Positions 1-58,547 of a stretch of 58,547 nucleotides of DNA are shown one piece after another. Positions within the stretch are counted from its first letter, which is position 1. Each line of letters opens with the position of its first letter. The stretch covers positions 1 to 58,547 of the IMG/VR virus record IMGVR_UViG_3300037156_000120. One strand, written 5' to 3'. The DNA is from a virus. Made by a program: the position numbers and the translations under genes. The notes beneath the pieces were generated by a model. It worked only from the letters and a program-made list of their open reading frames with translations, had not been told where the DNA came from and searched no databases.

Positions 1-18
1 CAGCGGCATGGGAAGCCG
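1..18. repeat. Terminal 18-bp overlap (circular closure), left copy
   Basis: The first 18 bases are identical to 58530-58547. A protein reading frame continues without interruption when the two copies are merged. This is best read as the overlap left where a circular (or circularly permuted/terminally redundant) genome assembly was opened, not as a biological terminal repeat, because the break lies inside a virion gene. Confidence 0.85.
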
Positions 19-281
19 CGCGCGATGCTGTTGTGAATACTGCTACGAAGGGTATCACCGACCCGGAACAGAAAGCTTCGACAGCCAGCGATGCAGTCAC
101 GACATTCGTGGATCAGAACCCAATGCCGACAGACCCTCTTATAGCTGCGTGGAAAAACGGTCTAAACACAGCAATTCAAACCGCCGCAAAAACTGCCAAC
201 ACGCCAGCTGGCGCCGAGGTGGCGAAACGGCAGGCGGTTGATAGGTATATTGCGGGCCATCCGTATCCCGACACTAAATAG
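3..281 (+). CDS. C-terminal part of junction-spanning virion/ejection protein
   Basis: This frame is open from the window start to the TAG at 279-281 and continues the gene that starts at 57542. Merged over the 18-bp overlap, the protein is about 422 aa. The part here is hydrophilic and Ala/Thr/Gln-rich and ends in PYPDTK. It lies 9 bp before the giant internal virion protein, in a run of presumed ejection proteins. No family is recognised. An internal ATG at 33 is in frame but is not the true start. Confidence 0.8.
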   Translation, partial: AAWEAARDAVVNTATKGITDPEQKASTASDAVTTFVDQNPMPTDPLIAAWKNGLNTAIQTAAKTANTPAGAEVAKRQAVDRYIAGHPYPDTK

Positions 282-290
282 GAGTCTGAC

Positions 291-3200
291 TTGTCGCAGG
301 CCGGTCTCATCAACGCGACGCAAGATCAGGGTCTTTCCATTGCTGAGGCCCGGAACTTTCGCGCCCCGCAATACGGGACGGCAACCGTTCCGTCCGGCGG
401 TGAAGGTATGTCTTTAGAAGAAGCGAGAAACTTTCGCCCCGCCACGCCGTTATCTCCGCCTACGTCGCCAGCTGATGCTGATGACGGATTTTTCAAGACG
501 ACCGGCAAGGCGTTAATTCGCGGCGCGGTTGAAGGCGCGACGGATATCGGCGAAGCGCCGACAGCCTTTGAAGATCGCCCAACAGACGAGCAAGACAATT
601 CGCATCTCGGAAAGATACTTGCCACACCTGTCAGCGAAGGCTGGAGTAGCCCTACTTGGTGGGCAGCGCACATAGCACACGATGTGGCTAGCGCAGCTCC
701 GTCTCTTGCGCTCGGCCTCGCTGGTGGGGCTGCCGGTGCTGCTACGGCTGGCGCTCTGACAGCCGAAACTGGCCCCGGCGCGATTGCTGCGGCTGCTGCA
801 GGTGGTCTTGCGGGTAGCGCCGCAGGCTTCGGTCTAGGCTCTGGTCTTTCGGAACTAAAACCTGCCTATCTGAAAGCGCGGGCCGATGGACTCGATCACG
901 ACGAGGCCGTGAGCCGTGCCATGGTAGAAAGCGGCATCGCTGGGGCGTTCGGATCGGTGATGGGCCTCGCGCCAGGCATGTCGTTTTTCGGTAAAACGGT
1001 GGAAAGCGCACTCAAGAAACCCATATCCGAGGCGTTGGCGCAGACATTCGGCGTCATGCCTGCCGTCGGAGCCGCGCAACAAGTCACGCAAGGAGCTGTC
1101 GAGGGTAAACTCCCGACGGCGGGCGAACTTGCAACAGGCTACGCGGAGAATGTTGGTGTTGGTGCTGCTCTTGTCGGCATTCATTCCGCTTTAGGGGTTG
1201 TTAGAAAAACGCCTGCTGACAAGATTGCTGACGATGTCACCGATCCGAATATCGACCTTAACACCGCGATCGACACAGCCGCGCAGGCCGCCAAGGGCGA
1301 GACGCCTGCCGCAGAGAGCATCGTCGCTGGCAAAGATGCGCTCGACGCCGCTGCCGCCCAGAGCAAGATCAGCACCCTGTTCAAAGGGATGAACACAGGC
1401 ACTGCAGAGCAAACCGACAACGGGACTGTTAACTACACGCCTAAGGGCTCCGACATCGCCATGCCAATGGAAGTGCGCGATCCGAGTCAAGAGCCGGAAG
1501 ACGGCAACGGCGTGTCTTCGTCGTTAGCGCAGAAAGTAACAGATCATTATCAAGACGAACATGGTGTCAATGTTGTGTGGGTGAAAGATCCCGGCAAGAA
1601 TGTACCATTCGACGGCGCTGTAGACCCGAATCAGCCGAACACGATATTCCTGTCAGATAACCCTGACCGCGCGATAACCGGCGTCGTCACTCATGAATTC
1701 GGTCACCTGATGGAAAACATCAGGGCGCCCGACACCAAGCTGCCCGACACGATAGGCCCTGACGGCGAAACGATCCCCGGCGCAATTAAACCCGGCGAAC
1801 GCTTCGGTGACCTCCTGAACGAGACCGTGTTGAAAAACATGAACTCCACTGCGTGGGATCAGGCTATCGAAATATTCTCGCCGTCCGCTCCGAAACGTGG
1901 CGCCGTCGACGACAACGGCGCGCCGGTCTACGCGCCCGGCGGCGAAGGCGACGCAGACCACGCGCAGGACATGGCCGTCCACTTCGTCAATGAATTCGCG
2001 AAAGACACGATAGGAGACGTCCAGAAAAACCCCGCTCTCGAACAACTAGTCCTTGGCAAAGTGGCCGACCTTGCGGAAGAGCGTTATGGGCCTGAAGTCG
2101 CCCAGACCATGATGACGAAATTCATGGACGGCATCAAAGCCGCTATGCAGACCGTGCGCGATCTATTTTCTGCGGACAAGAATACCGCATCGCTTTCCGA
2201 AAGCCGTTTTAATAATCTCGCCGAGGTCCACGACGTTGTCGCCAGCATGTTAGCGCACAAGTATTTCGAGAGGTTCGGGGATGAGCCTGCGCCCGTAGAC
2301 GACGTAGCGAACCGAGATAGTTTCTTAAAAGCTGGGACGCCCTCGCCGGCAACCGTAACGGCAGACACAAACCATCCGCTCGGCCCTGCCTATATCGACG
2401 CGCGTACGAAAGCCGCGAGCTATGCCCGCTGGCTCGGCCAGCTCGACGCCAAGCGTCGCGAAGACGCAAAGACGAGCGAACCTGTTCGCGTGTTGCAGCA
2501 GGCGCGTGACGCAATCCTGAACAAGGTTGGTGGTGTCGAAGATCGTCTTACGAAAACGGGTGCTGCACGTCTTGCGGATATCCGCTCACAGCTCGACGCA
2601 CGCCTTAATCCGGTCGGCGACAATGCTGATATGGCGAACGTGCGCGCGGCGATGGTTCGCGAGCATCAGAGAATGGCTGACGCGGCTTCAGTGTCGAAAG
2701 GACCGCAGTTTTCGCCGAAGCAGCGTGACGAAGACAATAAGCCGTTCTTCTCCGCGCTTCAGCGCGGTGTCGAAGACTTGAAGATGGACAAGGCGCCCCC
2801 CGGCCAGTGGGAAGCTACAATCAAAAATCTGCCCGGTATCAAGAGCGAAGAGATCGCTTGGTCCGGTCTGAATGAATTTTTGCGCGGTCAGACGAGACCT
2901 GTCACCAAGACAGAAGTGCTGCAACATCTGCGCGATAATGACGTGCAGATCAATGAAGTCGTTAAAGGCAATACGATCTCGGCTGAAGACGAAGAGGAAC
3001 ACGCTGAAATAAAACAGCGTTATCGCTACGATCCAGACAGCGTGTCGCAAGCCGACTATGATCGCATGGTTGATCTGGAGAAGCGCGCCTACAACTCAGA
3101 AGGCCAGACAAAATTTAGTACATACGCGCTGCCTGGCGGCGAGAACTATCGAGAAATGCTGATGACATTGCCGCCGACGGTGAGAGAAATACCGGCGTGG

Positions 3201-6200
3201 AAGGCGGTTCGACACGACGGTCAAGTAGACAGCACGTACGACAACGAGCTCGCTGCGCGCGATCGCGCCTCTGCGATCGGCGGAACTGTAGAACGGGGAA
3301 AGACAATCCGAGCGGAAGGCGGCTTCAAGTCGAGCCACTTTGACGAGCCGAACATTCTTGCCCACGCGCGCTTCGACGACCGCACCACCGCTGATGGCAA
3401 GAAAGATTTGCATGTTGCGGAGATTCAGAGCGATTGGCATCAAAAAGGCCGTCGAGAAGGATACGCCAAAGATCAACCGCAATTTTGGGTTCGCAACACA
3501 CGCTCTGGTAACGCATCACCTTTCTTCAACACGTTAGAAGAAGCTGACGCATATCGAAACAAGCTTCCTGAAGCGGTGCGCGGACAAACTATTATAAGCA
3601 AGCGTCCCGGCAAAGTCGGAACTGTTCCTGATGCCCCGTTCAAGACAACGTGGCACGAGCTGGCGATGAAGCGCATGCTGCGTTACGCCGCTGAGAACGG
3701 CTACGATCGTCTCAGTTGGGATACTGGTGAGACGCAAGCCGATCGATACGATCTCAGCCATCAAGTGGACAGCATCGGCTATCGTAAAGACGGCGACAAC
3801 ACTTACGAAGTCTCTGCCATAAAAGACGGCGAGAGTGTCATGTCTGAGCACGGTCAAACGCCTGCGCAGTTGGAAAACATTGTTGGCAAGGATGCCGCCA
3901 AGAAAATCGTTGACGGGGAAGGCACACCGCGCGCTGGCGGCGGCAATGTGAAAGACCTTTCCGGCCTTGATCTCAAAGTCGGCGGCGAAGGCATGAAAGG
4001 GTTCTACGACAAGATCCTGCCGAACTTCGTCAACAAATATGTGAAGAAGTGGAACGGCAAAGTCGAGAGAACGACTTTCGAGGCGGACGCAAACCGCAAA
4101 GAGTTCGATCAAGTCCCCTACATTGAAAGCGGAGACACGCCTGTGCATTCGGTCGCTATCACGCCTGAGATGCGCAAGAGCGTCATGCGCGGCCAGCCGA
4201 AATTCAGTCCGCGCAAAATCGAAGAACCGACTGAAGGCAAGCCGGTTCCGAAAGACGTCGCTCTCGCCAGCGGCTTGAAGAACAGCAACAAGGCTGTACT
4301 TAACGATTCGGCGCTGTCTGAGGCTGAAAAACGTGGTAGGCTTATCTCTGATCGCCGCATCAACGCGGCCCTCGCAAAGGAAGCAAATGGACGCCCAGCT
4401 GATGCACAATCAGGCCTTTCAGGCCCCGACGCCGGAAAAGGTAGCGGACGCCTCGACACTGGAGGCTTCACTGACAGCGAAAAACGGGCCTTCGCAAGAG
4501 CCAGCGCCGCCCAAGACGTTCGATCCGCTCGCCTCGGCGGTGAGCCGTCATCCTTCTCTTTCGAGCGAAAGAGCAGCGGAGATGGCGGAAAATCTCGGGT
4601 TCTAAAAAGCCTCGGCGTCACCTATGACGCCGAATGGAAAGCTGGCGCCGGTCTGCGCCGCGTCTACGAGAAAAACGGCAGCAAAGTCCCGCTCAGAATT
4701 CTCGAGCTCACGCCCGGTGATGACAAAAACGCCGCGCGTTTCGAGCAGGCGATCACGGCCAGCAAAAACTCCAGCAAGGATGGCGCCGCCGTCGCGGTCT
4801 ATCCTGTCGAGGACTATAAAAATTTCAAGCTGCTGATGTCCGACGACGGCAAGTCCGGCGCCGCGGTCAAGCCGGACGGCGACATCATCTCGGTGTTTTC
4901 AAACAATGGCACCGGTCACGCGATGTTCGAGGCTGCGATCGCAGCTGGTGGCCGCAAGCTCGACGCCTTCGACACCATCCTGCCCGATTTCTATCACAGC
5001 CACGGCTTCATCGAAGCCGCGCGCACGGCTTGGAATGACGAGTTCGCTCCCGAAGGCTGGGACAAGGCGCATTTCGCCGAATTCAACAACGGCAAGCCGG
5101 ATGTCGTCCTGATGGTTCTCGATCGCGGCAACGTCTCGCCCGTACTCGAGAAATCAAAAGTCTTCAGCGACTGGGACGGCGCTGCTCGCGTGCAGGAAAA
5201 GCTGCTCAAGAAAATGGACCGCGAGCAGCCCGCCGCGACGATCAATCTCCGTCTCGATCGCCTGGACGGCAAGAAGCCGTTCACTGTCGCCCAGGCGAAA
5301 GCCGAGTTGGCAAAATTCGGTGTCGACGCTGTCGCGACCCGTACGCGCAAGATTAACGGCAAGGAAGGCGAGCCCGGTGTCGTGATGAACCTGTCGCGCG
5401 CGCTGACGCCCGAGGAAGCCACGCGCTTCAGCGAGGCGATGAAGCAGGAAGCTATCCCGCAGTTTGCCAATGGCCGCGGCGAGCTGCACGGGCCCAACGC
5501 CGAGAAATGGGGAGATTTCAACCCTGAGAAATTTCATCCGATGCAGGAAGGTCAGGCGCTGCATTCTCCGCGAGTTTCATCCGAAACTCGCGACGCCCTT
5601 ATCAGAAAATATCCCGATCTCGCCCAGATGTTTAGGCGCCCCGCTAAGATATCCGAAGAGCCCGTCACGCCAGAAAAAGTCGAAACGCCTGCTTTCGAAA
5701 AGGAGCATGTCGGCTCGCTGGAAGAAGAGCTGGCCAAGGCAGGCCTTTCCGGGGCCGATAAAACTGCGCCAGCGGCTGAAACGCCCAAGCAGCGCGCCAT
5801 CACGATGCAAAACCCCGAGGGTAATGGCAAACCGATTCAGCGCGCCTTGAACGACGAGGAAACCCGCGCCCTCGAAAATGCGCCGCAGATAGAAGCTGCA
5901 TCGAAGCTGGTCGACATGAACAAGGATCGCGCCATCCGGATCGCTATGCGGAAGGAGCAGCCGCCGAAGGATCTGCTGCCGACCTTCGTATATTTCGAGC
6001 TGGAGCGCCGTGCGCTGGCTGAAGGTGATGACGAGCTTCAGGCCAAGCTCAGAACATCACCACTGGCGAAGGAAGTTACGACAGCCGGTCGTCTTGGACA
6101 ATCCTTCGTGACGCGAGATCCCGTCGCCGCCGCCGTAGACGCGCACATCCAAGTTGTGGAAAATGCTCGCACAGCGGCGCTCAAGGCCAAAGGCGGCGAC

Positions 6201-6332
6201 GTAGTGAAAGTGCAGGCCAAAGCCGAAAAGGAAGTGGCCGAGCAGATGGTAGCAGCGAAGAGACAGGCGCGGGCGCTTTCGCCGCGCGAGAAATGGGCGC
6301 AAACTATCGCCAAAATAACGTGTGCGACATAA
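291..6332 (+). CDS. Giant polyvalent internal virion protein with zincin domain (2013 aa)
   Basis: Large multidomain protein of the polyvalent type, which phages are thought to inject with their DNA. The TTG start at 291 is supported by TAGGAG at 279-284. Parts in order: two EARNFR motifs near the N-terminus; an Ala/Gly-rich hydrophobic stretch (about 120-330) that could cross or disturb a membrane; a zincin-like metallopeptidase site HEFGH at residues 468-472; a conserved phage module (about 815-905, with PFFSALQRGVEDLK); a polyvalent-protein domain with EIQSDW at about 1044; a GNAT-like segment (about 1436-1616); another small domain to about 1760; and a charged helical tail. It is followed by a 627-aa ORF in the +1 frame that looks like its continuation. 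Late gene, between ejection proteins and lysis. The third zinc ligand is not assigned. Role in ejection or host takeover is inferred from family knowledge. Confidence 0.8.
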   Translation: MSQAGLINATQDQGLSIAEARNFRAPQYGTATVPSGGEGMSLEEARNFRPATPLSPPTSPADADDGFFKTTGKALIRGAVEGATDIGEAPTAFEDRPTDEQDNSHLGKILATPVSEGWSSPTWWAAHIAHDVASAAPSLALGLAGGAAGAATAGALTAETGPGAIAAAAAGGLAGSAAGFGLGSGLSELKPAYLKARADGLDHDEAVSRAMVESGIAGAFGSVMGLAPGMSFFGKTVESALKKPISEALAQTFGVMPAVGAAQQVTQGAVEGKLPTAGELATGYAENVGVGAALVGIHSALGVVRKTPADKIADDVTDPNIDLNTAIDTAAQAAKGETPAAESIVAGKDALDAAAAQSKISTLFKGMNTGTAEQTDNGTVNYTPKGSDIAMPMEVRDPSQEPEDGNGVSSSLAQKVTDHYQDEHGVNVVWVKDPGKNVPFDGAVDPNQPNTIFLSDNPDRAITGVVTHEFGHLMENIRAPDTKLPDTIGPDGETIPGAIKPGERFGDLLNETVLKNMNSTAWDQAIEIFSPSAPKRGAVDDNGAPVYAPGGEGDADHAQDMAVHFVNEFAKDTIGDVQKNPALEQLVLGKVADLAEERYGPEVAQTMMTKFMDGIKAAMQTVRDLFSADKNTASLSESRFNNLAEVHDVVASMLAHKYFERFGDEPAPVDDVANRDSFLKAGTPSPATVTADTNHPLGPAYIDARTKAASYARWLGQLDAKRREDAKTSEPVRVLQQARDAILNKVGGVEDRLTKTGAARLADIRSQLDARLNPVGDNADMANVRAAMVREHQRMADAASVSKGPQFSPKQRDEDNKPFFSALQRGVEDLKMDKAPPGQWEATIKNLPGIKSEEIAWSGLNEFLRGQTRPVTKTEVLQHLRDNDVQINEVVKGNTISAEDEEEHAEIKQRYRYDPDSVSQADYDRMVDLEKRAYNSEGQTKFSTYALPGGENYREMLMTLPPTVREIPAWKAVRHDGQVDSTYDNELAARDRASAIGGTVERGKTIRAEGGFKSSHFDEPNILAHARFDDRTTADGKKDLHVAEIQSDWHQKGRREGYAKDQPQFWVRNTRSGNASPFFNTLEEADAYRNKLPEAVRGQTIISKRPGKVGTVPDAPFKTTWHELAMKRMLRYAAENGYDRLSWDTGETQADRYDLSHQVDSIGYRKDGDNTYEVSAIKDGESVMSEHGQTPAQLENIVGKDAAKKIVDGEGTPRAGGGNVKDLSGLDLKVGGEGMKGFYDKILPNFVNKYVKKWNGKVERTTFEADANRKEFDQVPYIESGDTPVHSVAITPEMRKSVMRGQPKFSPRKIEEPTEGKPVPKDVALASGLKNSNKAVLNDSALSEAEKRGRLISDRRINAALAKEANGRPADAQSGLSGPDAGKGSGRLDTGGFTDSEKRAFARASAAQDVRSARLGGEPSSFSFERKSSGDGGKSRVLKSLGVTYDAEWKAGAGLRRVYEKNGSKVPLRILELTPGDDKNAARFEQAITASKNSSKDGAAVAVYPVEDYKNFKLLMSDDGKSGAAVKPDGDIISVFSNNGTGHAMFEAAIAAGGRKLDAFDTILPDFYHSHGFIEAARTAWNDEFAPEGWDKAHFAEFNNGKPDVVLMVLDRGNVSPVLEKSKVFSDWDGAARVQEKLLKKMDREQPAATINLRLDRLDGKKPFTVAQAKAELAKFGVDAVATRTRKINGKEGEPGVVMNLSRALTPEEATRFSEAMKQEAIPQFANGRGELHGPNAEKWGDFNPEKFHPMQEGQALHSPRVSSETRDALIRKYPDLAQMFRRPAKISEEPVTPEKVETPAFEKEHVGSLEEELAKAGLSGADKTAPAAETPKQRAITMQNPEGNGKPIQRALNDEETRALENAPQIEAASKLVDMNKDRAIRIAMRKEQPPKDLLPTFVYFELERRALAEGDDELQAKLRTSPLAKEVTTAGRLGQSFVTRDPVAAAVDAHIQVVENARTAALKAKGGDVVKVQAKAEKEVAEQMVAAKRQARALSPREKWAQTIAKITCAT

Positions 6333-6333
6333 G

Positions 6334-8217
6334 ATGGCATTTTGCGTCCCACCAAACCAAGCTGAGAAACTGATCGCCGCCCTCGAGAAGGCCGGGACGA
6401 CGCCGCCCGACCTGATGGATATGCCGAGCAGCGATGCTCGCCGTGCATTCTTCGAGAAGTTCGTCAGTAAGGAAGATGCTGCGCAGATCAATCTTGCATT
6501 AGAGAAGACCAGCCTTCTGAAAGACCAAAATGCTGGCTACATGCGCTGGTACAACAACATCAAGGAAACTGTCCCGAAAACTGTTCAGCGTGATCTTCTG
6601 CACAAAATTGAAAAGCTTGACCGCGTGTTGAGTCCTGCCGAAGAAAAAGATTTCTATGCCGATCTTGCTGCCAGCAAAGTTGGCACGGCTGTCACCTTCG
6701 AAGAAGGACAGAAGATAACAAAACTCGCGCAAAAAGCGGCGCTGGAGCGCGACAAGGCGACTACGGCTTCGGCTGGCGTGAGTACGGAATTTCTGATGGC
6801 CGCGTCCGATCTCGAGCATTACGTGAAATCCCTGAAGCCGACGACGGTTTATGGATCAATCGGCAGAATGGCCGCCATTATTGCCAGAAACCATCTGCTG
6901 ATGAACCTGTCGACGCCAATCAAGACCACTGCAGGGCAACTAACAAACTCCGTGATGGACCTTTTCACCCGCAGAATGTCGAACCGTGTTCTCAGCGGGG
7001 CGGATCCAGCAACAGCGACCGCGTTGAAGAAAGAAGCCTGGGAAGTATTCCGGGGGTCCAAAAACCAGTTCAATACTGCCTCCATGGAAAGCTATAGAGA
7101 TACCGGCAAGCTCGGCGAGAAAGCGCGCTTTGACGTCTCAGAAGGAATGTTGTCCAGCAATCCGGCTTTGCGCACAGCCGAGGCAGTTGTGCGAGGGTAT
7201 GCGCGACTTACCAACAAGATCGCCATTGACTACGAGCATAATTTTACCTTCACAAAATTCTATCAGAACGCGTTCTTCGACGGCGCGCACATAGGCGCGA
7301 CCAATATCGCCAAGTCGGAAGGATTGGCTGGTGCGGCGTTGAAATCGCGAACTGGCGCCATCATGCGCGATGCCGCGAAGATCGAGCCGGAAACGGACGT
7401 CGGGAAGCTTGTCCGCGTCGAGGCGCAGAAGCAGGCCGCGCGCGTCACGTCGACGAACGAAACCATCATGGCAAAGATGGCGCTAGGCGTGAAGGACGCG
7501 ATGAACAAGTGGGTTCCCGGTCTTGGCGATGCCATGATGCCGATAGCGAAGATACCAGCGAACATCATTTACAACGGTATCGAGAATGCCGGTATCGGTC
7601 TTCCGCACGGCGCGTGGGATATCTTCCAGGGCCGCAAGAAGATACAGTCGGATGATCTGCAGACACGTTACGAAGGTATGGCGCAGTTCGCAAACGGAAT
7701 ACAGCGCGTTGGCCGCACGGTTGGCGTTCTCGCTGCTGCCGCCTTCTTCTCCAGTTTATTCGTGAAAAGAGATTTCCGGACGGATGGATACGGCAATCAT
7801 TTCTTCCGCATTGGCGACATCTGGATCAACACGGAATATCTGAATTTCATCTCACCCGCGTTCGCTGGCGCGATGGAGGTCAAGCAGTATGGCCGCGCCA
7901 ATGACGGCCCCGAGAAGGCGATCGAGAATTATGGCCGCGGCGCGCTTCAAGGCTTGAAGAGCGCGCCCGGTGTCGACGAGATCAGCAATCTGGTCAACAG
8001 AGTTACCAGCGGCGACCCTTTCAAAGGCATCACGAAATACGCCGCTTCTCGCGGCGTTCCAGCCTTTGCGCATAATCTAGCCAATACCAGACCAATGGAC
8101 CGGCTGTTCTTCGGTGCGACTGGCGTCGAGACGCAACACGATGTCGAGCGCGATAGAATCGAGAAAGCACAGCGCGCCGCGCAAAGCAGACGCGAGAATG
8201 AAAGATATAGGCAATAG
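6334..8217 (+). CDS. Ejection protein, second part of the giant protein (627 aa)
   Basis: The frame is +1 relative to the 2013-aa ORF. ATG 6334 lies one base after that ORF's TAA (6330-6332), with no clear Shine-Dalgarno sequence; an in-frame GTG at 6322 also lacks one. Translation therefore probably depends on coupling (termination-reinitiation) or frameshifting. The protein is helical and charged at the N-terminus. It has a hydrophobic segment near residue 475 (VGVLAAAAFFSSLFV) and a basic Arg/Gln-rich C-terminus. The content resembles C-terminal regions of giant podoviral internal proteins. It may be a separate ejection protein or the detached C-terminus of the upstream gene. No catalytic motif seen. 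Confidence 0.7.
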   Translation: MAFCVPPNQAEKLIAALEKAGTTPPDLMDMPSSDARRAFFEKFVSKEDAAQINLALEKTSLLKDQNAGYMRWYNNIKETVPKTVQRDLLHKIEKLDRVLSPAEEKDFYADLAASKVGTAVTFEEGQKITKLAQKAALERDKATTASAGVSTEFLMAASDLEHYVKSLKPTTVYGSIGRMAAIIARNHLLMNLSTPIKTTAGQLTNSVMDLFTRRMSNRVLSGADPATATALKKEAWEVFRGSKNQFNTASMESYRDTGKLGEKARFDVSEGMLSSNPALRTAEAVVRGYARLTNKIAIDYEHNFTFTKFYQNAFFDGAHIGATNIAKSEGLAGAALKSRTGAIMRDAAKIEPETDVGKLVRVEAQKQAARVTSTNETIMAKMALGVKDAMNKWVPGLGDAMMPIAKIPANIIYNGIENAGIGLPHGAWDIFQGRKKIQSDDLQTRYEGMAQFANGIQRVGRTVGVLAAAAFFSSLFVKRDFRTDGYGNHFFRIGDIWINTEYLNFISPAFAGAMEVKQYGRANDGPEKAIENYGRGALQGLKSAPGVDEISNLVNRVTSGDPFKGITKYAASRGVPAFAHNLANTRPMDRLFFGATGVETQHDVERDRIEKAQRAAQSRRENERYRQ

Positions 8218-17100: not shown

Positions 17101-18483
17101 TCAAGCGGCGCGCTTCATGTAATCGAGCAGCGCCTCTTGGACGCTTTTCTTGCCGACAAGACGATCATAGACGCCGAGATCCATCGTGTGGCGCGCGAGG
17201 ATCAAATGCACGAAGACCGGGCGATCGTAACCAGACTGCTTCTGGCGCATCGGGCCAATGCGCTCGATGATCTGCATGAAGTTTTCCAGATTCCAGTCGA
17301 CGCCAAAGAACACGAGGATATTGCCGCCATCCTGCAGATTCAGGCCGTGACCGGCTGACGCCGGGTGCGCAAAGAGAATCGGGATCTTGCCCGCGTTCCA
17401 ATCCGCTTCGGTGCTGGGCTTCGCGTCGAGCACGCGGCCATTGGGAAACGCTTTCTGAAGGCGCTCGAGATCCGCGACAAAATTATAGGCGACCAGAACC
17501 GGCGTGCCGTTCGCCTCTTCGATCACGCTCTTCAGCGCATCGATCTTGGCGTCGTGCAGCTCTTCCCACTGGCCTTTTGTTTCCGATATGTCGCTGTCGC
17601 CGGTATAGCAGAAGCCATTGGCGATCTGCAGTAGCTTGCTGGTCTTGACCGCAGCGTTGGCGGCGCCGACACCCTTTCCCTTGATCTCCGTGAATTTCTT
17701 CTTCTCCATTTCGCGGTAGATCTTGCGGACGCTATCGGGCAGATCCACGAAAACCTGATTGTAGATCGGCTCGTCGACGTCGAGACCTTTGACGGTGATG
17801 TAGACGTCGTGAACCTTCACGTGGATCTCGCTCTCGGCGTGCGCCATCGGCTCGAGGCTGTAGCCATCCTTACCGCGCTGAAACCAGCGGTTTTCGAAAG
17901 CCGTGAATGAATCGCCGAGACGCGCGCCTTTATCGATGAAATAGGTCTGGCCCCATAGATCCTTGAGCCCATTAGGCGACGGCGTGCCTGTCAGGCCGAT
18001 AAGACGGGTGATCTTGTCGAAGGCGACCTTCTTCAGCGCCTGCCCGCGCTTGGCGCCCTGTGTGACGCGCGTGCCTTTGAGCCGGGTGAATTCATCGGGA
18101 ATGACGGTATGAAACGGCCAGTCATCGCCCAGTTCTTCGACCAGCCACGGGACGTTCTCATAATTGATGGCCATGATCTGCGCGTCGACAGTCAGCGCCT
18201 TCTCGCGCTCTTTCGGTGTGCCGGTGATGATCGATGCGCGCAGATGGTTCAGATGCTTCCATTTCTCGAGCTCAGGCCCCCAGACTGTGCGCGCGACGCG
18301 CAGGGGCGCGATTACCAACGCCGGGAAGATGTCATCCTCGACCAGCGTCAGCTGGTCGAGCGCTGTCAGCGTGCAGACCGTCTTACCGCCGCCCATCGGC
18401 GCCCAGATCCCGCAACGCTTGTTGTCGCGAATGAACTGCATCGTCGGGTATTGATAGTCGTGCGGGACGAAGATCCTGCTCAC
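17101..18483 (-). CDS. SNF2-like superfamily 2 helicase (460 aa)
   Basis: ATP-dependent DNA translocase/helicase of the phage SNF2-like type. Walker A APMGGGKT (residues 28-35), DEFT in place of DEAH (130-133), motif III TGTPSPNG (165-172), and C-terminal motifs HPASAGHGLNLQDGG and QIIERIGPMRQ. Family members usually carry an Arg-rich ERIGRxRQ, so the Gly-Pro in ERIGPM is slightly unusual. It overlaps the VRR-NUC gene by ATGA-type spacing. The trio helicase, VRR-NUC and polymerase A is a common phage replication/recombination block. Confidence 0.9.
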   Translation of the reverse strand: MSRIFVPHDYQYPTMQFIRDNKRCGIWAPMGGGKTVCTLTALDQLTLVEDDIFPALVIAPLRVARTVWGPELEKWKHLNHLRASIITGTPKEREKALTVDAQIMAINYENVPWLVEELGDDWPFHTVIPDEFTRLKGTRVTQGAKRGQALKKVAFDKITRLIGLTGTPSPNGLKDLWGQTYFIDKGARLGDSFTAFENRWFQRGKDGYSLEPMAHAESEIHVKVHDVYITVKGLDVDEPIYNQVFVDLPDSVRKIYREMEKKKFTEIKGKGVGAANAAVKTSKLLQIANGFCYTGDSDISETKGQWEELHDAKIDALKSVIEEANGTPVLVAYNFVADLERLQKAFPNGRVLDAKPSTEADWNAGKIPILFAHPASAGHGLNLQDGGNILVFFGVDWNLENFMQIIERIGPMRQKQSGYDRPVFVHLILARHTMDLGVYDRLVGKKSVQEALLDYMKRAA

Positions 18484-18788
18484 GATTTTATAACCACATG
18501 TGCTTTTATGAAATCATCGATCTTCTCGATCGTATCCAGAATGAACACGGTGATGCCACTCTCGCGCAACTTTTTGTGCTCTTCCAGCTGCTGCGGTTCA
18601 GCTTTTCCGCCGGGGCGCTTCAACTCTACGAAATAGATATAAGCTGGCTTGTAAGGCGCAGATGGCCACCAGACCATGCGATCGGGCGCGCCGTTACGTC
18701 CAATCCATTTAATTTTTCGGACAAAGCCGCCAGATACGCGCATTTGTTCTACGAGATAGTTTTCGATTTTTCCTTCAGGCGTTGTCAC
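18480..18788 (-). CDS. VRR-NUC domain nuclease (102 aa)
   Basis: Compact PD-(D/E)XK nuclease of the VRR-NUC type: GAPDRMVWWP, then YFVELKRPGGKAEPQQ and LRESG. Asp in GAPD and Glu/Lys in VELK are the expected catalytic residues. Probably a structure-specific (junction/flap) nuclease in phage replication. It overlaps the genes on both sides by 4 bp. Confidence 0.92.
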   Translation of the reverse strand: MTTPEGKIENYLVEQMRVSGGFVRKIKWIGRNGAPDRMVWWPSAPYKPAYIYFVELKRPGGKAEPQQLEEHKKLRESGITVFILDTIEKIDDFIKAHVVIKS

Positions 18789-20776
18789 GATTGATCCTTA
18801 CGATATCTGTGTGTCTCGAAGCCAGCTGCTGCGAGCGGCAAACCTTGCATCCACGTCGTTTTTTCTATCATCATTTTGGAAAGAGCTTCGTCTGTGAATT
18901 CTTCAGTGTCGGGCGTCTCGGTGATCAGCTCGTCGTGTGCGTGGAGACAGACTTCATAGCCAGCTTGTTCCGCGGCTTTCATACCGCGAGCAAGAATATC
19001 ACGGGCGACTTTTTCAGTGACGTTCTGCAGCAACTTCGGGCCATAGGTGTCGAGCTGCGTCCATTGCCGGGTGTATTGATCAATGCCGTCATAGACCAGC
19101 TGGCCGTCTTCGCGCTCATCGACTGCAGGATATGAAAGATAGCTGCCGGAAGGCGTCTTGATGCGCAGCCATTTTACGCCGTTGTGAACGACGCAATCCA
19201 TCTCCAAAACACCAGCAACAAATCTGCCGCCGACATTTCGAACAGCCTGACGGCAAGCCCATTCGAGATCGTACCAGAAAGATTTGATCGCAGGATGCGC
19301 CTTGCGCCATTTCTGAACGATCTCGACGACTTCGCTCTCCGGAAGCGACACGCCGTACGCCGCGCCCATTTTCATAAACGCGCCGACCGCACCACCATAT
19401 TGCAAGCTCAACTCCATGACCTTGCCGACAGCGCGCATCAGACCGAGGCCGTGTTTCTTGTCGGCGATCACCATCTCGGGCGTTACGCCGAAAGCGCGAG
19501 CATAGGCGAGCACATAGATGTCGTGACCGATGCCTTTATCGTACTCGAAGAAAGCGCGAACCTTCCACGCCTCGCCAGCCAGCCACGCAACTACGCGGCC
19601 TTCGATATTGCTGAGATCCGCGATCACCAGCTTTTTGCCGAATTCAGAAATCAGCGTACCACGCACCGCCGAGGCGCAGAGATCCATGACAGTCGCGAAT
19701 TTTATTTCATCGCTGGTATCGAAGATCAGATCTTCGCAATCGGCTTTCATGGCCGCAATGCCCAGATCTATGAGATCTTGTTTTATGGTTGGGCGCGGAA
19801 GATTCTGCGGCTGAAACAGACGCCCGCTCCACCGAAGCGTCCGGCCCGCTCCGCAGAATTGCAGCGTGCCGCGCAGGCGCTTATCGCGCGTGGATGTGCC
19901 TTTCACCAAGACGGTATATTTCGCCGGGCTGGTGGCCGCCGCCTGCTGGCGAATCTCCAGCAGCTCGCGAACGGCTTCCGTCATCTCATCTTTCAGCGCC
20001 GTGGCTACGGTGCCCTTGGTCATGTCGACCATATTGAAATTGTGCTCTTCACCGAGATGTTCGAGGAGCTTCGCACGCTGCGTGGCCGAGCCGACTTTAC
20101 CATCAGTGAGTTTGTCCATGCGCGCCGCTAGAAGTATTTGCGACCGAGCGGCGGCGCGCAGGGCTGCATGCGCCAGATCCATGTCGACCTTGATGCCGCG
20201 ATCGTTGATCTTCTGGTCGAGGATCCAGAGCTCGCATTCTTTGGGTGTCAGATTCCAACGCGGCATAAGCCTGCGGCATTCGCGCATCGAGACGATATCG
20301 AAACCAGCGTACTCGACAAACTCGGCCCATTCCTTCGGATGGGTCTCTTTAGTCGCGCGGCGCAGCTTCATGTTCTTGGGGCGCGGCTTGCAGAAAAGAT
20401 TGATCAGCTTTTTGCCGGTCTTCTTTTTCGCCATGTCCTCGGCGACGCCCAGCACTTGGCAGAGCTGATCCAATCCGCCAGGCAAGGCGTGCGCGTAGGC
20501 CGTGACCATCGTGTCTTCGATCTTCTCGACCGGGATCCTGACGCCGCAAGCGGCGAACATCGTACGGTCAAAAAAGCTGTTGTGAATGATGATCGTGTCG
20601 GCGTCGTCGATCATCGCCTGGATCTGCGCTGGCACAAAATCCTCAAGCACGTCGACAGGATTATCGTCCCACGCATATGCGGTGAGGATGATCTCGACGC
20701 GCTCAGAATAGGCGTACGTCCCGTTCTTCAACGGGATGTCGCTCCACGTTTCCGCATCAATGTGTAAAACAGCCAC
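18785..20776 (-). CDS. Family A DNA polymerase with 3'-5' exonuclease domain (663 aa)
   Basis: Replicative polymerase. The exonuclease domain begins at once with HIDAET (Asp7, Glu9) and a later IIHNSFFDR. Polymerase motif A is IADLSNIEGR (about residue 384), motif B the helix RAVGKVMELSLQYGG (about 446), motif C HAHDELITE (about 612). No 5'-3' exonuclease domain. The size is close to the T7-type enzymes. GTG start at 20776 with AAGGAAAATGCGAA upstream, a leader shared with several other early genes. A hairpin with a T-run precedes it. Confidence 0.95.
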   Translation of the reverse strand: MAVLHIDAETWSDIPLKNGTYAYSERVEIILTAYAWDDNPVDVLEDFVPAQIQAMIDDADTIIIHNSFFDRTMFAACGVRIPVEKIEDTMVTAYAHALPGGLDQLCQVLGVAEDMAKKKTGKKLINLFCKPRPKNMKLRRATKETHPKEWAEFVEYAGFDIVSMRECRRLMPRWNLTPKECELWILDQKINDRGIKVDMDLAHAALRAAARSQILLAARMDKLTDGKVGSATQRAKLLEHLGEEHNFNMVDMTKGTVATALKDEMTEAVRELLEIRQQAAATSPAKYTVLVKGTSTRDKRLRGTLQFCGAGRTLRWSGRLFQPQNLPRPTIKQDLIDLGIAAMKADCEDLIFDTSDEIKFATVMDLCASAVRGTLISEFGKKLVIADLSNIEGRVVAWLAGEAWKVRAFFEYDKGIGHDIYVLAYARAFGVTPEMVIADKKHGLGLMRAVGKVMELSLQYGGAVGAFMKMGAAYGVSLPESEVVEIVQKWRKAHPAIKSFWYDLEWACRQAVRNVGGRFVAGVLEMDCVVHNGVKWLRIKTPSGSYLSYPAVDEREDGQLVYDGIDQYTRQWTQLDTYGPKLLQNVTEKVARDILARGMKAAEQAGYEVCLHAHDELITETPDTEEFTDEALSKMMIEKTTWMQGLPLAAAGFETHRYRKDQS

Positions 20777-20800
20777 TTCGCATTTTCCTTGTCAGCAATT

Positions 20801-20835
20801 AGAAAAGCGGCGCCCAGCCGTTAAACCGGGCGCCG
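20801..20835 (-). terminator. Intrinsic terminator/attenuator between GapR and polymerase genes
   Basis: Minus-strand stem CGGCGCCC / GGGCGCCG with a 12-nt loop, followed by CTTTTCT. It lies after the GapR stop and upstream of the polymerase RBS. No promoter is obvious between them, so it may attenuate rather than fully stop transcription. Confidence 0.65.
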
Positions 20836-20839
20836 GTAC

Positions 20840-21097
20840 TCAGACCAGATCGTTGAAATCAAGACCGACAGCCGATCGATAAAGATCGAGGATCGCATCC
20901 TGTTCCTGCAGATCCGCCTTGTCCAGCTTACGCAAGCGGACAATCATCCGCATAATCCGAGTATTGAAACCGGTGCCTTTGGCCTCGGAGTAAATTTCCC
21001 GAATGTCTGCAGATATGGTGTCCTTCTCTTCCGTCAGGCGCTCGACGCGCTCGATAAAAGATTTCAAAACATCCTTGGCGAATCCGCTTTTCGCCAT
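20840..21097 (-). CDS. gapR: GapR family (DUF2312) nucleoid-associated protein (85 aa)
   Basis: Nearly full-length match in memory to DUF2312/GapR: FIERVERLTEEKDTISADI, REIYSEAKGTGFNTRIMRMI, RLRKLDKADLQEQDAILDLY. In alphaproteobacteria GapR binds AT-rich overtwisted DNA ahead of replication forks and assists topoisomerases. The protein is coiled-coil and probably tetrameric. Its place between the ssDNA-binding-like DUF2815 gene and the polymerase fits a role in phage replication or in competing with the host protein. ATG overlaps the upstream stop (TGATG). Confidence 0.88.
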   Translation of the reverse strand: MAKSGFAKDVLKSFIERVERLTEEKDTISADIREIYSEAKGTGFNTRIMRMIVRLRKLDKADLQEQDAILDLYRSAVGLDFNDLV

Positions 21098-21663
21098 CAG
21101 GTCAGACTTTCGTCTTCGTCGGCGGCAAGATCCTTGAAGTCCTCGCCCGTCGCCGGGGTCGAACCACCGAAGGCTTCGCCGTCTTTAGCAAACATCACAC
21201 CGGCGATGTTGGCGTTGATGCGGCGACCCCACTTGTTGTCCTGCGCCCAGATATCAATCTTGGCGTGGACGAAACACCCCGAGTAGATCAACGACTTGAT
21301 GTCACGGGGGTCCGTGACTTCGCGGTTGAACTTGTCGAACACGGTGGGACGGTTCTTGCTGCGCGTCGACAGCGAGAACATGCCTTCAAAACCGGCATAG
21401 GCTTCGCCGGTCTTCTTGTTGCGATAGGACGCCTTCACGAAGCACAATTTCTTGTCTTCCTTCAGAAGCTCCAGCACGCTGGTCGCCTTGTCTTTCCACT
21501 GCTCTTTGGCAACCGCCGCCATGGCGTCCTCGATCAGTTGAACCTCGGGCGACTTCGGGACGATGATGAACTTCGCCTGATACGCAGGCTCACCTTCGCC
21601 GAACGCTTCCGGCTTGTCCAAGGCCGGGAAAGAGATACGGACATTCTTCAGTCGCAGTTCCAT
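21097..21663 (-). CDS. DUF2815 protein, probable ssDNA-binding protein (188 aa)
   Basis: Starts MELRLKNVRISFPALDKPEAF and contains AKFIIVPKSPEVQLIEDAM and FVHAKIDIWAQDNKWGRRIN, the hallmarks of DUF2815, a phage family with an OB-like fold thought to bind single-stranded DNA. Acidic C-terminal tail (LAADEDESLT), as in SSB-type proteins. It sits between the DUF2800 nuclease gene and gapR in the replication block. Confidence 0.85.
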   Translation of the reverse strand: MELRLKNVRISFPALDKPEAFGEGEPAYQAKFIIVPKSPEVQLIEDAMAAVAKEQWKDKATSVLELLKEDKKLCFVKASYRNKKTGEAYAGFEGMFSLSTRSKNRPTVFDKFNREVTDPRDIKSLIYSGCFVHAKIDIWAQDNKWGRRINANIAGVMFAKDGEAFGGSTPATGEDFKDLAADEDESLT

Positions 21664-21666
21664 TTT

Positions 21667-22881
21667 TCAGTCTTCCTTTTCGCTGCTTGCAATTAAATCC
21701 CGGAAGGTTTCTTCCGAGACAGTCGAAACGTCCAACGCCGGACGCTTATCCGTGACGAGAGCCACGGATGGTTTGCCGTCGCTGCGGGTAATCAGATTCT
21801 GCATCTTCGCCCACAGCTTCGACTTTGTCTTCTTGAGAAGCTTTTCAGCCGTGGTCGGGCTAATCAGCTTCATGTCGTACATTTCACTCTGCTTCAACTT
21901 AGCGCTCTTCATCGCGTCCGTCGCAGCAACCTCATCGGCCCAGGCACGGTTGCCCTTACGCCCCTCGACGATCTTATAGCCCGGCACGTCTCGCCGGTCG
22001 AAGAGACGACGCTCGGTCTCCGCACGAATCGCCTTGCACCAATGCTCGACCAGCGGGACTTTATCCATCGCGTTGGCCAGAGCATTCTCGTTCACTTCCG
22101 CGAGATCCGCGAAATCGTCTTTGGTGGCCAGATGACCGACGATTCCATGGACCTCTTCTTTCAAAGCCGGGCACGTCGCCTTGGCCTTGCAGAATCGGCA
22201 TTGCTTCTCGCCCGGAACAAGGTCAGCAGTTTCATCCGCGCCGAGAGCAAGACTCGCGGCGAGCTTCGCCGTCTCTATGAACAGCTCCAGCTTTTCAGGC
22301 GCGATGCAGCAATCGCTAATATGATCAATGCGCGGCTGGAAGATGATCATCACGTAGTCGTTAGCGTCGACCATCATGCCGTAGTCATTAACCGCGCCGA
22401 CAAGATAGAGCAGCGCTTGCTCGTTGTCCTCGGCATCGACCTTGACGCCCATCCCGTATTTCAGATCGATGACAGTAACGCGATCTGGAAATAGAATGAT
22501 GACGTCTGCCGTGCCGGTGCTGCCCGGCACGCCAATCGCTTCAGAGAAATCGACGCGCTTCTCGACGAGAATCTGGCCGGTCTCGCCAGCAGTCTGATAA
22601 ACGAATTCGATATAATTCTCGACATGCTCGACCATGTCTTTGGTGACGCAAAACTCGAATTCATCGGCGGACATCATGCGACCGAGATAATCTTCGGGCA
22701 CATCTTTTTTGCCGTCCAGCCGGGCTTGAATGCATTCAGAACCGATTTGATGCGCGATGGTGCCTTCCGCCGCGTACTTCGAGGGTTGATCCTTGATCTT
22801 GCTTTCCAGGGCAAGGCTCCCCGGGCAACGCATCCAGCGATGCGCACCCGAGGGGGAGAGCATTGAATGTTCTCCTGCCAT
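21667..22881 (-). CDS. DUF2800 RecB-like nuclease (404 aa)
   Basis: Phage exonuclease-like protein. N-terminal LSPSGAHRWMRCPGS and EGTIAHQIG are family signatures; the PD-(D/E)XK core is GTADVIILFPDRVTVIDLKYG (Asp, then Asp-x-Lys). A Cys cluster CRFCKAKATC may hold zinc or an Fe-S cluster. Usually found with DUF2815, as here, suggesting a recombination/replication pair. The start is three bases after the upstream gene's region, with no operon break. Confidence 0.88.
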   Translation of the reverse strand: MAGEHSMLSPSGAHRWMRCPGSLALESKIKDQPSKYAAEGTIAHQIGSECIQARLDGKKDVPEDYLGRMMSADEFEFCVTKDMVEHVENYIEFVYQTAGETGQILVEKRVDFSEAIGVPGSTGTADVIILFPDRVTVIDLKYGMGVKVDAEDNEQALLYLVGAVNDYGMMVDANDYVMIIFQPRIDHISDCCIAPEKLELFIETAKLAASLALGADETADLVPGEKQCRFCKAKATCPALKEEVHGIVGHLATKDDFADLAEVNENALANAMDKVPLVEHWCKAIRAETERRLFDRRDVPGYKIVEGRKGNRAWADEVAATDAMKSAKLKQSEMYDMKLISPTTAEKLLKKTKSKLWAKMQNLITRSDGKPSVALVTDKRPALDVSTVSEETFRDLIASSEKED

Positions 22882-22885
22882 GGTC

Positions 22886-23236
22886 CTAGACGTCCAGCGC
22901 GGTGTCGACAGCCGCGATGAAAGCCGGATACTGGTCGGCCTTCAGCTGCGGCGCCTTCTCGACGCCAAACTTCGCCAGAACTTCCAGCGCAGCCGGGCGG
23001 CCCTTAGCTTCAGCCAGCTTCAGGACACGCCGCGCGATGTCCTTGGCATAGCTGATTTCGGCGACGTCGGTCTTGGAGGCGGTCTTCTCTTCCTTCGGCG
23101 CGGTTTCCTTGGGCGCTTTGTTTGCTTCTTTGGGCGCTTCGGCTCTGGAGACGGTGGTAGCGACTTGCTCACCCGCGAAATGCGCGACGATTGCGTCAAA
23201 CTCCGCGAGGGTATCTGCTTCAATATTGATTCTCAT
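22886..23236 (-). CDS. Hypothetical replication-region protein (116 aa)
   Basis: Start ATG 23236 chosen (AAAGGACCATACAAA upstream). N-terminal MRINIEADTLAEFDAIVAHF, then a Lys/Glu/Ala/Pro-rich linker (about 35-65) and a helical C-terminal part (ARRVLKLAEAKGRPAALEVL). This layout, with a linker and a C-terminal rHDD-like region, is seen in phage ssDNA-binding-associated proteins. Function uncertain. Confidence 0.7.
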   Translation of the reverse strand: MRINIEADTLAEFDAIVAHFAGEQVATTVSRAEAPKEANKAPKETAPKEEKTASKTDVAEISYAKDIARRVLKLAEAKGRPAALEVLAKFGVEKAPQLKADQYPAFIAAVDTALDV

Positions 23237-23350
23237 TTTGTATGGTCCTTTGGTTGGTGGTTGTAGACTCAATTCGCTTGCTAGAATTTTCGCATATGAG
23301 CAGTTAGCAAGTCGTCCTGCTTATCTGATTCAATTATAGAATTGCAATAG
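23237..23350 (-). promoter_or_regulatory. Intergenic region with possible minus-strand promoter
   Basis: AT-rich 114-bp gap. A perfect minus-strand -10 TATAAT (23333-23338) is present but without a good -35 at 17 bp. Two GANTC sites (near 23266 and 23328), the CcrM methylation target read by GcrA-type factors, lie in the gap. ATAGCTAT at 23347-23354 resembles the operator core seen elsewhere. Weak evidence overall. Confidence 0.35.
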
Positions 23351-23566
23351 CTATCTCCGCGTCTGATTAGCAATTTGTTGTATTTCGAGATCCCATAGAG
23401 CTTTGTGACCACGAGTCATGACGTAGACGCGATACTCGCTCGCCACAACAATCATGTCTTGGAATTGAATCAACCCAACTATTTTCTGGCCGTCTTCCGG
23501 ACCCCAAAAATCTTGAAGTGTTGGGCGATAGCGCCAGCGATTCCAGATGCGCATAAACCAGTTCAT
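23351..23566 (-). CDS. Hypothetical basic protein (71 aa)
   Basis: ATG 23566 follows AGGAGACCGAG. Basic, Trp-rich start MNWFMRIWNRWRYRP, then a small beta-rich domain (KIVGLIQFQDMIVVASEYRVYVM). Could be membrane-associated at its N-terminus. No family recognised. Confidence 0.65.
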   Translation of the reverse strand: MNWFMRIWNRWRYRPTLQDFWGPEDGQKIVGLIQFQDMIVVASEYRVYVMTRGHKALWDLEIQQIANQTRR

Positions 23567-23575
23567 CTCGGTCTC

Positions 23576-57007: not shown

Positions 57008-57552
57008 TGGCCGCACTTCTCCAAAATAATATTCTCGAGGCTAGCGAGCAGAAGATCGAGAGCCAGCTGACGCCGCAGAACAAAGTCAACTATATGAAAA
57101 TAGTTGTCGCTGGAATGCGCGCTGCGATGGCAAAGGGCCCGAACAGCATCGTGGCGTCTCTGCATCAGAGCAAGGATCCCGTCAGCGATTGTGCGGTCGG
57201 CGCCGTGAAGCTTTGCTTACTGATGGCTCACACGTCGCGCGGCACGATGCCGCCGAAAGCAATGGTCCCGGCAGGGATGACACTGATGTTGCATGCGTTG
57301 GATTTCTGTGACAAATCCGGCATCGCGAAGATCGGAACGCCCGAGCTTGTTCGCGCCACGCACCTCTTCACCAATGAGATTTTCAAGGCGTTCAAGATCT
57401 CGCCGCAGATGCTGCAGAACGCGGCCACCAAAGTCCACGGCATCATGCAGGATCCGACGAAGATGGAAATGCTGAAGCATCAGGCGGGCATGACGAAAAA
57501 TCCCAACGCACCGGTTCCGACGCCAGTAGAGGGAGAGAAAAATGCCGTTTGA
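57007..57552 (+). CDS. Conserved helical virion-region protein (181 aa)
   Basis: TAATG overlap with the previous gene. MAALLQNNILEASEQKIESQL, then VAGMRAAMAKGPNSIVASLHQS, a helical region with GAVKLCLLMAHTS and KAMVPAGMTLMLHALDF. Such proteins are conserved beside ejection genes in this phage type and may be a virion assembly factor. Function unknown. Confidence 0.7.
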   Translation: MAALLQNNILEASEQKIESQLTPQNKVNYMKIVVAGMRAAMAKGPNSIVASLHQSKDPVSDCAVGAVKLCLLMAHTSRGTMPPKAMVPAGMTLMLHALDFCDKSGIAKIGTPELVRATHLFTNEIFKAFKISPQMLQNAATKVHGIMQDPTKMEMLKHQAGMTKNPNAPVPTPVEGEKNAV

Positions 57553-58547
57553 TATTTCAGCCGGACTTTCCTTGATGGGTAGCACCGTCGCCAAGTCGGC
57601 TGGCGACAGCATGCTGGAGATGCAGAAGGCCGATCTGGAGAACCAGAAGATCATCCTTGCTGATCAGCTCGCGGGAAATCGTGAAGAGAAGGGGCGTCAA
57701 GCACAAGCTGTGATAGACGCGGCGGGACGGCAACAGTCGTCTGATCTTGCTGTGTCGGCTGACAAGGCTGAGACGCAGAACGCAGCTGATCTTGCGCTTC
57801 AGCAAGCCCCAAAACTCGCTGCCGTGCGGGATACCATAGATCAGTTACACGCGAGCGATCTAACATGGGCGAAAAACAGGCAGATCATAACTGACGCAAA
57901 TTCTACCGTCGACCAGCGTGCTGCCGCGAATGCGTCTAACACAGAGGTATTGGCGAATAATCTGAAGATAAATGCGCTGAAACAAACGCAGGCTCTTCAG
58001 AAGCAACTGATGGCGACTACAGACCCAGATAAGCGTGCGAATATCTTTCAGCAACTCACAGACGCCACTACAGACGCTCAAACCATCGTTGCCGCGAAGA
58101 TGGCGGAAGAGGGCAAATACAAGGACGATGTCAGCAGATATTCGTCTGCAACATTGCGCCAGACACAGGCTCAGAGCGCGTTGAATGCTGCGATAAAAGA
58201 CGGCGCAGACGACCCGACGCTTGCTACTGCGAGAGCGGACTTGGATGCGGCGAGGGTACAGGCTAATAACGCTGCGTCAGTGCTGACTACTTCCACTTCT
58301 GACAGAGCGCCGAAATTACCGGCGCTGCCTACGGACCCGACGCAACTTAAGGACGGCACGGTATATGATAACGGGTACGGCGCTCCGATGCGCGCGAAAG
58401 GCGGAAAACTATTTCCCGTCGACCCGGGAAGTGTAGCCGTTCCGCCTGCGGCTGGTTCTGGTACTACAAGTCTCATGGGGCGCGACACTTCTACGCCCGC
58501 CACAGCGCCGGTATCTAAGTATAAAACACCAGCGGCATGGGAAGCCG
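57542..58547 (+). CDS. N-terminal part of junction-spanning virion/ejection protein
   Basis: ATG 57542 (GGGAGAGAAAA upstream) overlaps the previous gene by 11 bp. The 335 codons here remain open to the window end, and the frame continues at position 3 to the stop at 281 (about 422 aa in total). Starts MPFDISAGLSLMGSTVAKSA; the next 200 residues are coiled-coil-like, Gln/Ala/Asp-rich, followed by a Pro/Gly-rich segment (LPALPTDPTQLKDGTVYDNG). Likely an ejection protein. Confidence 0.85.
   Translation, partial: MPFDISAGLSLMGSTVAKSAGDSMLEMQKADLENQKIILADQLAGNREEKGRQAQAVIDAAGRQQSSDLAVSADKAETQNAADLALQQAPKLAAVRDTIDQLHASDLTWAKNRQIITDANSTVDQRAAANASNTEVLANNLKINALKQTQALQKQLMATTDPDKRANIFQQLTDATTDAQTIVAAKMAEEGKYKDDVSRYSSATLRQTQAQSALNAAIKDGADDPTLATARADLDAARVQANNAASVLTTSTSDRAPKLPALPTDPTQLKDGTVYDNGYGAPMRAKGGKLFPVDPGSVAVPPAAGSGTTSLMGRDTSTPATAPVSKYKTPAAWEA
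58530..58547. repeat. Terminal 18-bp overlap (circular closure), right copy
   Basis: Exact copy of bases 1-18. Joining the ends gives a circle of 58529 bp and restores a 422-aa open reading frame across the junction. Confidence 0.85.

Follow-up and report, generated by a model that had tools for sequence, protein, structure and literature searches.

A giant polyvalent-type protein encoded last in a podovirus virion operon, with exchange of enzymes at its locus among related phages

Introduction

The window analysed here is the whole of the IMG/VR virus record IMGVR_UViG_3300037156_000120 (58,547 nucleotides), near the start of which lies a gene for a protein of 2013 amino acids (aa), P0001 (291..6332; like all features of this gene and its neighbors given below, on the plus strand). 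What kind of protein is this, and in what capacity does it serve the phage? A reading made from the sequence alone had proposed a polyvalent protein of at least five separable modules, in a possibly undescribed combination, from a phage of an alphaproteobacterial host. That observation is sound and its reading largely correct. P0001 is a new architecture inside a known kind of protein, and what the present analysis adds is the exchange of payload enzymes among syntenic relatives and an uncatalogued module, denoted here by its EIQSDW motif.

Results

Genes of the virion operon located upstream of P0001 were found, with their order kept and upstream of a giant protein, in five contigs (L173, L175, L019, L180 and L195/L292; L019, L171 and L174 are one contig). 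The shared upstream genes in the first four are mostly 38-63% identical to their counterparts in the window: L173, L019 and L180 have in common with it a 181-aa gene (52-55%) and the start of a 422-aa gene, and L175 the adaptor, tail, 127-aa and 181-aa genes (38-59%). The genes shared with L195/L292 extend from the capsid (71%) through the tail genes, with the tail protein at 52%. A zincin-like metallopeptidase domain stands at the start of the giant protein in all five relatives, and EIQSDW is present in all four complete ones; the giant of L173 ends with its contig at 863 aa and comprises the zincin part only. The architecture is zincin-EIQSDW-GNAT (GCN5-related N-acetyltransferase) in the window, zincin-EIQSDW-ART-LPD38 in L175 (ART, ADP-ribosyltransferase; ART-PolyVal match with E 3.8e-10), zincin-PBECR5-ART-EIQSDW-LPD38 in L180, zincin-helicase-EIQSDW-LPD38 in L019, where the helicase is strawberry-notch, and zincin-EIQSDW in L195, of which the zincin and EIQSDW parts were examined. 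The ART of L175 directly follows EIQSDW, which is the position of the GNAT in the window. The virion genes, the zincin and EIQSDW are the constant part of this locus, and the other enzymes are its variable part. The proposed polyvalent type is borne out by these syntenic relatives, in which zincin and EIQSDW share one polypeptide with LPD38 and, in two cases, with ART-PolyVal, and by the place of P0001 at the end of a virion operon.

The giant gene is the last gene of a podovirus virion operon, which consists of an SU10-type portal, capsid, adaptor, tail genes, the 181-aa gene, the 422-aa gene and then P0001; a major head protein and a terminase are also encoded by the phage. The 422-aa gene, for an ejection-type protein, is directly upstream of the giant gene and lies in two parts at the two ends of the record (57542..58547 and 1..281): when these ends are joined, the reading frame runs across the join without a stop and finishes at 281. 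The ends also carry an exact 18-bp direct repeat, CAGCGGCATGGGAAGCCG (1-18 and 58530-58547). Because the ends share these 18 bases and the 422-aa frame closes over the join, the genome probably is a complete one that was assembled as a circle. The N-terminus of the 422-aa protein is 45-63% identical to the product of the gene in the same place in L019, L173 and L180. The closest portal is that of the uncultured phage MW202426 (39% identity), in which a 408-aa gene is followed by one for a giant protein of 3145 aa whose C-terminal part matches large phage protein families, and the terminase is 49% identical to those of Pseudomonas phages such as H66.

The proposed open reading frame (ORF) of P0001 is upheld by its start: the TTG codon comes just after the stop codon of the upstream gene, and AGGAG, the likely ribosome-binding site (280..284), overlaps that stop and lies six bases before the TTG. 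No family in Pfam, NCBIfam or PADLOC matched P0001 significantly. Nevertheless, its zincin, EIQSDW and GNAT modules each have independent relatives, so that several unrelated activities appear to be joined in one polypeptide, and elsewhere these modules share polypeptides with ART-PolyVal, PBECR5, LPD1, LPD3, LPD23, LPD37, LPD38, RadC and InPase. The supposed novelty of the combination holds for the complete set, zincin-EIQSDW-GNAT, which was seen in no other fetched protein, but not for its parts, which are common: EIQSDW and GNAT occur together in 9 other ORFs, in either order, some of which resemble duplicate contigs. The hydrophobic segment of the sequence-only reading corresponds to an Ala/Gly-rich N-terminal region delimited by composition and hydropathy (residues 118-306; 642..1208). 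The term is fair but loose, given that a single window exceeds 1.4 on the Kyte-Doolittle scale. The region weakly matches N-terminal portions of further phage giants, with a best E of 1e-4. Closer to the N-terminus, residues 15-24 and 40-49 (333-362 and 408-437) form a near-identical repeat, LSIAEARNFR and MSLEEARNFR, which is possibly a packaging or docking signal.

The zincin-like domain (residues 400-690; 1488..2360) was identified by conservation, a structure model and a match to phrog_87, a metallo-protease family (E 0.006). The HEFGH motif (residues 468-472; 1692-1706) is weak evidence when taken alone, considering that HExxH is present in 3.75% of shuffles of P0001. The motif is real because the H/E/H residues are kept in aligned relatives together with a conserved downstream glutamate, E568 (1992-1994), the candidate third ligand. 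Specifically, residues 308-805 have relatives in L019, L173, L175 and L180 at 32-35% identity, and H468, E469, H472, H564 and E568 are identical across four aligned proteins (window, L180, L174 and L175), in agreement with the zincin assignment made from the motif; L195, with weak similarity in this part, has HELGH and the matching FNE. In the 917-residue model, the zincin part, with a mean predicted local distance difference test score (pLDDT) of about 65-89, consists of a helix, strands, the helix with HExxH and a helix with a Glu; Iyer et al. 2017 described this order for such zincins (helix at the N-terminus, then a small sheet, the HExxH helix and the Glu helix; PMC5512222). A pattern search of genome contigs for zincin relatives found none; L180 and L195 were reached through EIQSDW instead.

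The EIQSDW module (residues 813-1308; 2727..4214), with the motif itself at residue 1044, was delineated by alignment and has no match in Pfam. Its N-terminal part of 90 residues (about 813-900) had been listed as a module in its own right; the two, however, align as a single unit of approximately 500 residues in 95 non-redundant relatives, so that the count of five fully separable modules is not supported. At least 585 viral stretches encode the module, as do at least 120 from genomes of bacteria and archaea. In an alignment of 61 sequences, 13 polar or aromatic residues are invariant (Y953, E955, H1016, N1021, H1025, R1027, R1031, E1044, Q1046, S1047, D1048, W1121 and Y1239), a pattern which suggests that the module is an enzyme. 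The ORFs that carry it exceed 1500 aa in 108 cases and measure 500-1000 aa in 38. Among 99 proteins, the 330 residues after EIQSDW contain ART-PolyVal in 8, RadC in 2, and LPD3, LPD23, LPD37, KfrB, HD and PRTase in one each. Using a small query set, we detected terminase, portal or tail-tube genes within the fetched flank at 32 of 80 viral EIQSDW loci. In the Pelagibacter phage HTVC028P, a 954-aa gene flanked by 'internal protein A' and 'internal virion protein' encodes EIQSDW, and the ejection block of this phage (L256 3610-9089) includes it together with internal protein A and a gene annotated as acetyltransferase.

In the fold search with EIQSDW, the single-domain matches outside its own family were mostly GNATs, with E >0.1 and large root-mean-square deviations; these comprised spermidine acetyltransferases in PDB (probability up to 0.69) and N-acyltransferases in the viral library. 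When EIQSDW was compared to the GNAT profile, an alpha3-beta5 stretch aligned with a probability of 0.2%, which is not significant, and profile comparison of the EIQSDW module with the GNAT module of P0001 gave no homology. ORF-33 of PPpW-4, with 140 aa, is of a length that suits the fold match V5YTU6, but matches EIQSDW only weakly (E 0.01) and has no sequence relationship to the GNAT module. An ADP-ribosyltransferase, one of the folds that the sequence-only reading had suggested testing for, was not found: EIQSDW was rejected as such because no ART was among the fold matches listed, and P0001 has no match to the ART-PolyVal profile.

The GNAT-like acetyltransferase module, which includes a conserved N-terminal helical extension (residues 1352-1612; 4344..5126), bears out the GNAT-like segment proposed from the sequence. 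It has relatives in 481 viral stretches, the best 80 of which are 42-60% identical to it, and no match in Pfam. The core of the model (residues 1440-1610) has pLDDT mostly >85 and the order of strands and helices of a GNAT; the best PDB matches are all GNATs, namely N-acetylglutamate synthase (NAGS) domains with probability 0.92 and E 0.055-0.2, and the template modeling score against 4nf1 is 0.53 (by target length). A positive control, the hhalign comparison of the module with Acetyltransf_1 proteins from four genomes, yielded E 0.0036 with a probability of only 9%, the GxG and FYxxxGF regions being aligned. The modeling thus supports a GNAT fold for residues 1352-1612, with acetyltransferase activity as a prediction. 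Solo relatives of the module are annotated as acetyltransferase in Streptomyces phages; in T7-like Pseudomonas phages, their genes are among the first in the genome (L288 752-1231; L289 1697-2167), the usual place of host-takeover genes in such phages. Support for a virion-borne form of the module comes from Microbacterium phages, where it is part of a fusion with a minor capsid protein.

Beyond the GNAT, a conserved stretch (residues 1660-1752; 5268..5546) matches phrog_11722 (E 1.9e-5), and hidden Markov model and phmmer searches with residues 1750-2013 found nothing. The start codon of a second ORF, P0002 (627 aa; 6334..8217), is one base after the stop of P0001, a layout that makes translational coupling to the giant gene likely. 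P0002 sits where L019, L175 and L180 carry a fused C-terminal region with LPD38, and it probably supplies the part that these relatives have fused. Identification of P0002 itself as LPD38 was rejected, given that it has neither an LPD38 match nor similarity to the C-terminus of the relatives. A sequencing frameshift (extended ORF 6322-8217) is disfavored as well: only the 11 bases that separate the stop in P0002's own frame (6316-6318) from that of P0001 (6330-6332) could hold the join, and in the absence of a long homopolymer there, two genuine genes are the likelier arrangement.

Discussion

Taking these results together, we consider it likely that P0001 is a packaged polyvalent protein of a podovirus which would be injected with the DNA, cut itself by means of its zincin and deliver the GNAT as payload. 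Given its observed position, the giant would be made late, alongside the proteins of head, tail and ejection, enter the capsid and leave it with the DNA at infection; packaging has a precedent in podovirus JC1, in which gp69, an LPD38-bearing protein of 4515 aa encoded last in a comparable gene block, was detected in purified virions with 51 peptides (PMC9144972). The N-terminal hydrophobic region would probably aid membrane crossing or insertion, and the zincin would most likely cleave its own giant protein into functional pieces, either ahead of delivery or following it. The GNAT, the fold of which is supported, would be the payload of this particular phage and most likely acetylate a host protein in the phage's favor. 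EIQSDW would act as a conserved enzyme-like part, found alongside the zincin in all relatives with a giant of sufficient length to judge, and the product of P0002 would complete the C-terminal end.

Several results weigh against this interpretation. In the profile scan, P0001 contains neither LPD38 nor any other Pfam polyvalent domain, and the fold search gave no PDB match with E <0.001 for either of its structure models. The order of structural elements fits a zincin, but no zincin was among the PDB matches listed for the 917-residue model. Moreover, no relative of P0002 could be detected, which leaves the interpretation without an account of the C-terminal part.

Three other explanations have to be weighed. 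P0001 might be mainly a structural ejection protein that, similarly to gp15 and gp16 of T7, forms a channel for DNA, with enzyme-like domains that are decayed or serve a structural role. Its location in a block of ejection genes, beside the coiled 422-aa protein, and the presence of EIQSDW inside a comparable block of HTVC028P are in line with such a role. However, the expected catalytic residues are kept, both in the zincin (H/E/H/E) and in EIQSDW (the 13 invariants in 61 sequences), and the payload changes between phages while the virion genes stay, unlike a structural core; we regard this explanation as unlikely. A different doubt concerns the zincin, which, rather than processing the giant, could be a weapon that cuts a host protein or an enzyme that opens the wall to aid penetration, an option that Iyer et al. 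left open for the zincins of polyvalent proteins (PMC5512222). Constancy of the zincin amid varying domains better fits a service role, and DdrB of P1 has been reported as processed (PMC5512222), so that we give the weapon some weight, but clearly less than self-processing.

Finally, the giant could be synthesized in the infected cell, where it would act late or against superinfection, and never enter the virion. Packaging is, after all, something that we infer, and the solo GNAT relatives at the left, early end of the T7-like Pseudomonas phage genomes are made after entry. The position of P0001 in a late virion operon, the fusion of the GNAT module to a minor capsid protein and the presence of JC1 gp69 in virions all argue in the opposite direction and make this the least probable of the three.

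Among known systems, P0001 resembles the zincin-bearing polyvalent proteins of phages (PMC5512222), which are likewise large, multi-domain, adjacent to virion genes and equipped with a zincin and a host-modifying enzyme; furthermore, LPD38 and ART-PolyVal occur in its syntenic relatives. It differs from them in the lack of a Pfam polyvalent domain, in having the C-terminal part as a separate ORF and in pairing zincin and EIQSDW with a GNAT. The DarB-like giants JC1 gp69 and Bcep22 gp75, which were found in virions, are similarly encoded in the morphogenesis module after a virion protein of about 500 aa and have an LPD38 C-terminus, as do the relatives of P0001 (PMC9144972). In contrast to P0001, LT-like, methylase/helicase, LPD3 and LPD38 domains are described in JC1 gp69, and zincin, EIQSDW and GNAT are not reported; no Burkholderia phage was among the matches of P0001. 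The first GNAT family of Iyer et al. shares with the module of P0001 a prophage setting, ART in the same giants and solo forms in phages of Actinobacteria, but this is a resemblance of setting, and the module has no match to a Pfam model. Likewise, the similarity to gp14-gp15-gp16 of T7, namely the position after the tail genes and the occurrence of EIQSDW within such a block in HTVC028P, is one of position.

A more speculative extension, to which we assign somewhat less than even chances, is that EIQSDW is an unrecognized, very common enzyme of polyvalent proteins with a GNAT-like fold, within a fixed frame of hydrophobic part, zincin and EIQSDW that leaves an exchangeable slot for the payload. 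Under this hypothesis, Glu1044 would lie on the strand that bears the general base in GNATs, with the Tyr of RYDLS as the acid. If so, P0001 would contain two different acyltransferase-like domains.

The locus amounts to a natural experiment, in which a lineage marked by its capsid and tail genes swaps the enzymes of its giant protein at one place: an acetyltransferase, an ADP-ribosyltransferase, an RNase with an ADP-ribosyltransferase, or a helicase. Such exchange makes the polyvalent-protein concept testable, by separating frame from payload, and shows how phages re-arm. In addition, Pfam lacks two domain families that each count hundreds of viral members, and one of these often neighbors known polyvalent domains.

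The evidence on the host is divided. In favor of the proposed alphaproteobacterial host, the DNA polymerase is 58.6% identical to those of Caulobacter phages, with the same order of replication genes, and a contig of a Phenylobacterium metagenome-assembled genome (MAG) encodes relatives of the capsid and tail proteins (29-38%, long matches) beside an EIQSDW-LPD38 protein. Conversely, the closest structural relative, L195/L292 (major capsid protein, 71%), is on a Nitrospirales MAG contig, and no relative was found in 298 other genomes of the family of Phenylobacterium; phage contigs in MAGs may be misbinned. The contig of L180, which is syntenic with the window and whose giant (L180 4193-13966) carries the PBECR5 RNase and ART, belongs to an Acidobacteriia MAG.

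Elsewhere in the window, 17101-25633 contains a primase/helicase, DUF2800, a 188-aa gene, the DNA polymerase and an SNF2-like helicase, in the order seen in Caulobacter phage RW; the polymerase gene of RW is longer by an insertion, and the match is in two pieces. Next to the structural genes, a 68% GC stretch (41952-43499) encodes a repetitive, Gly/Ala/Thr-rich protein of 515 aa with no match in PHROGs.

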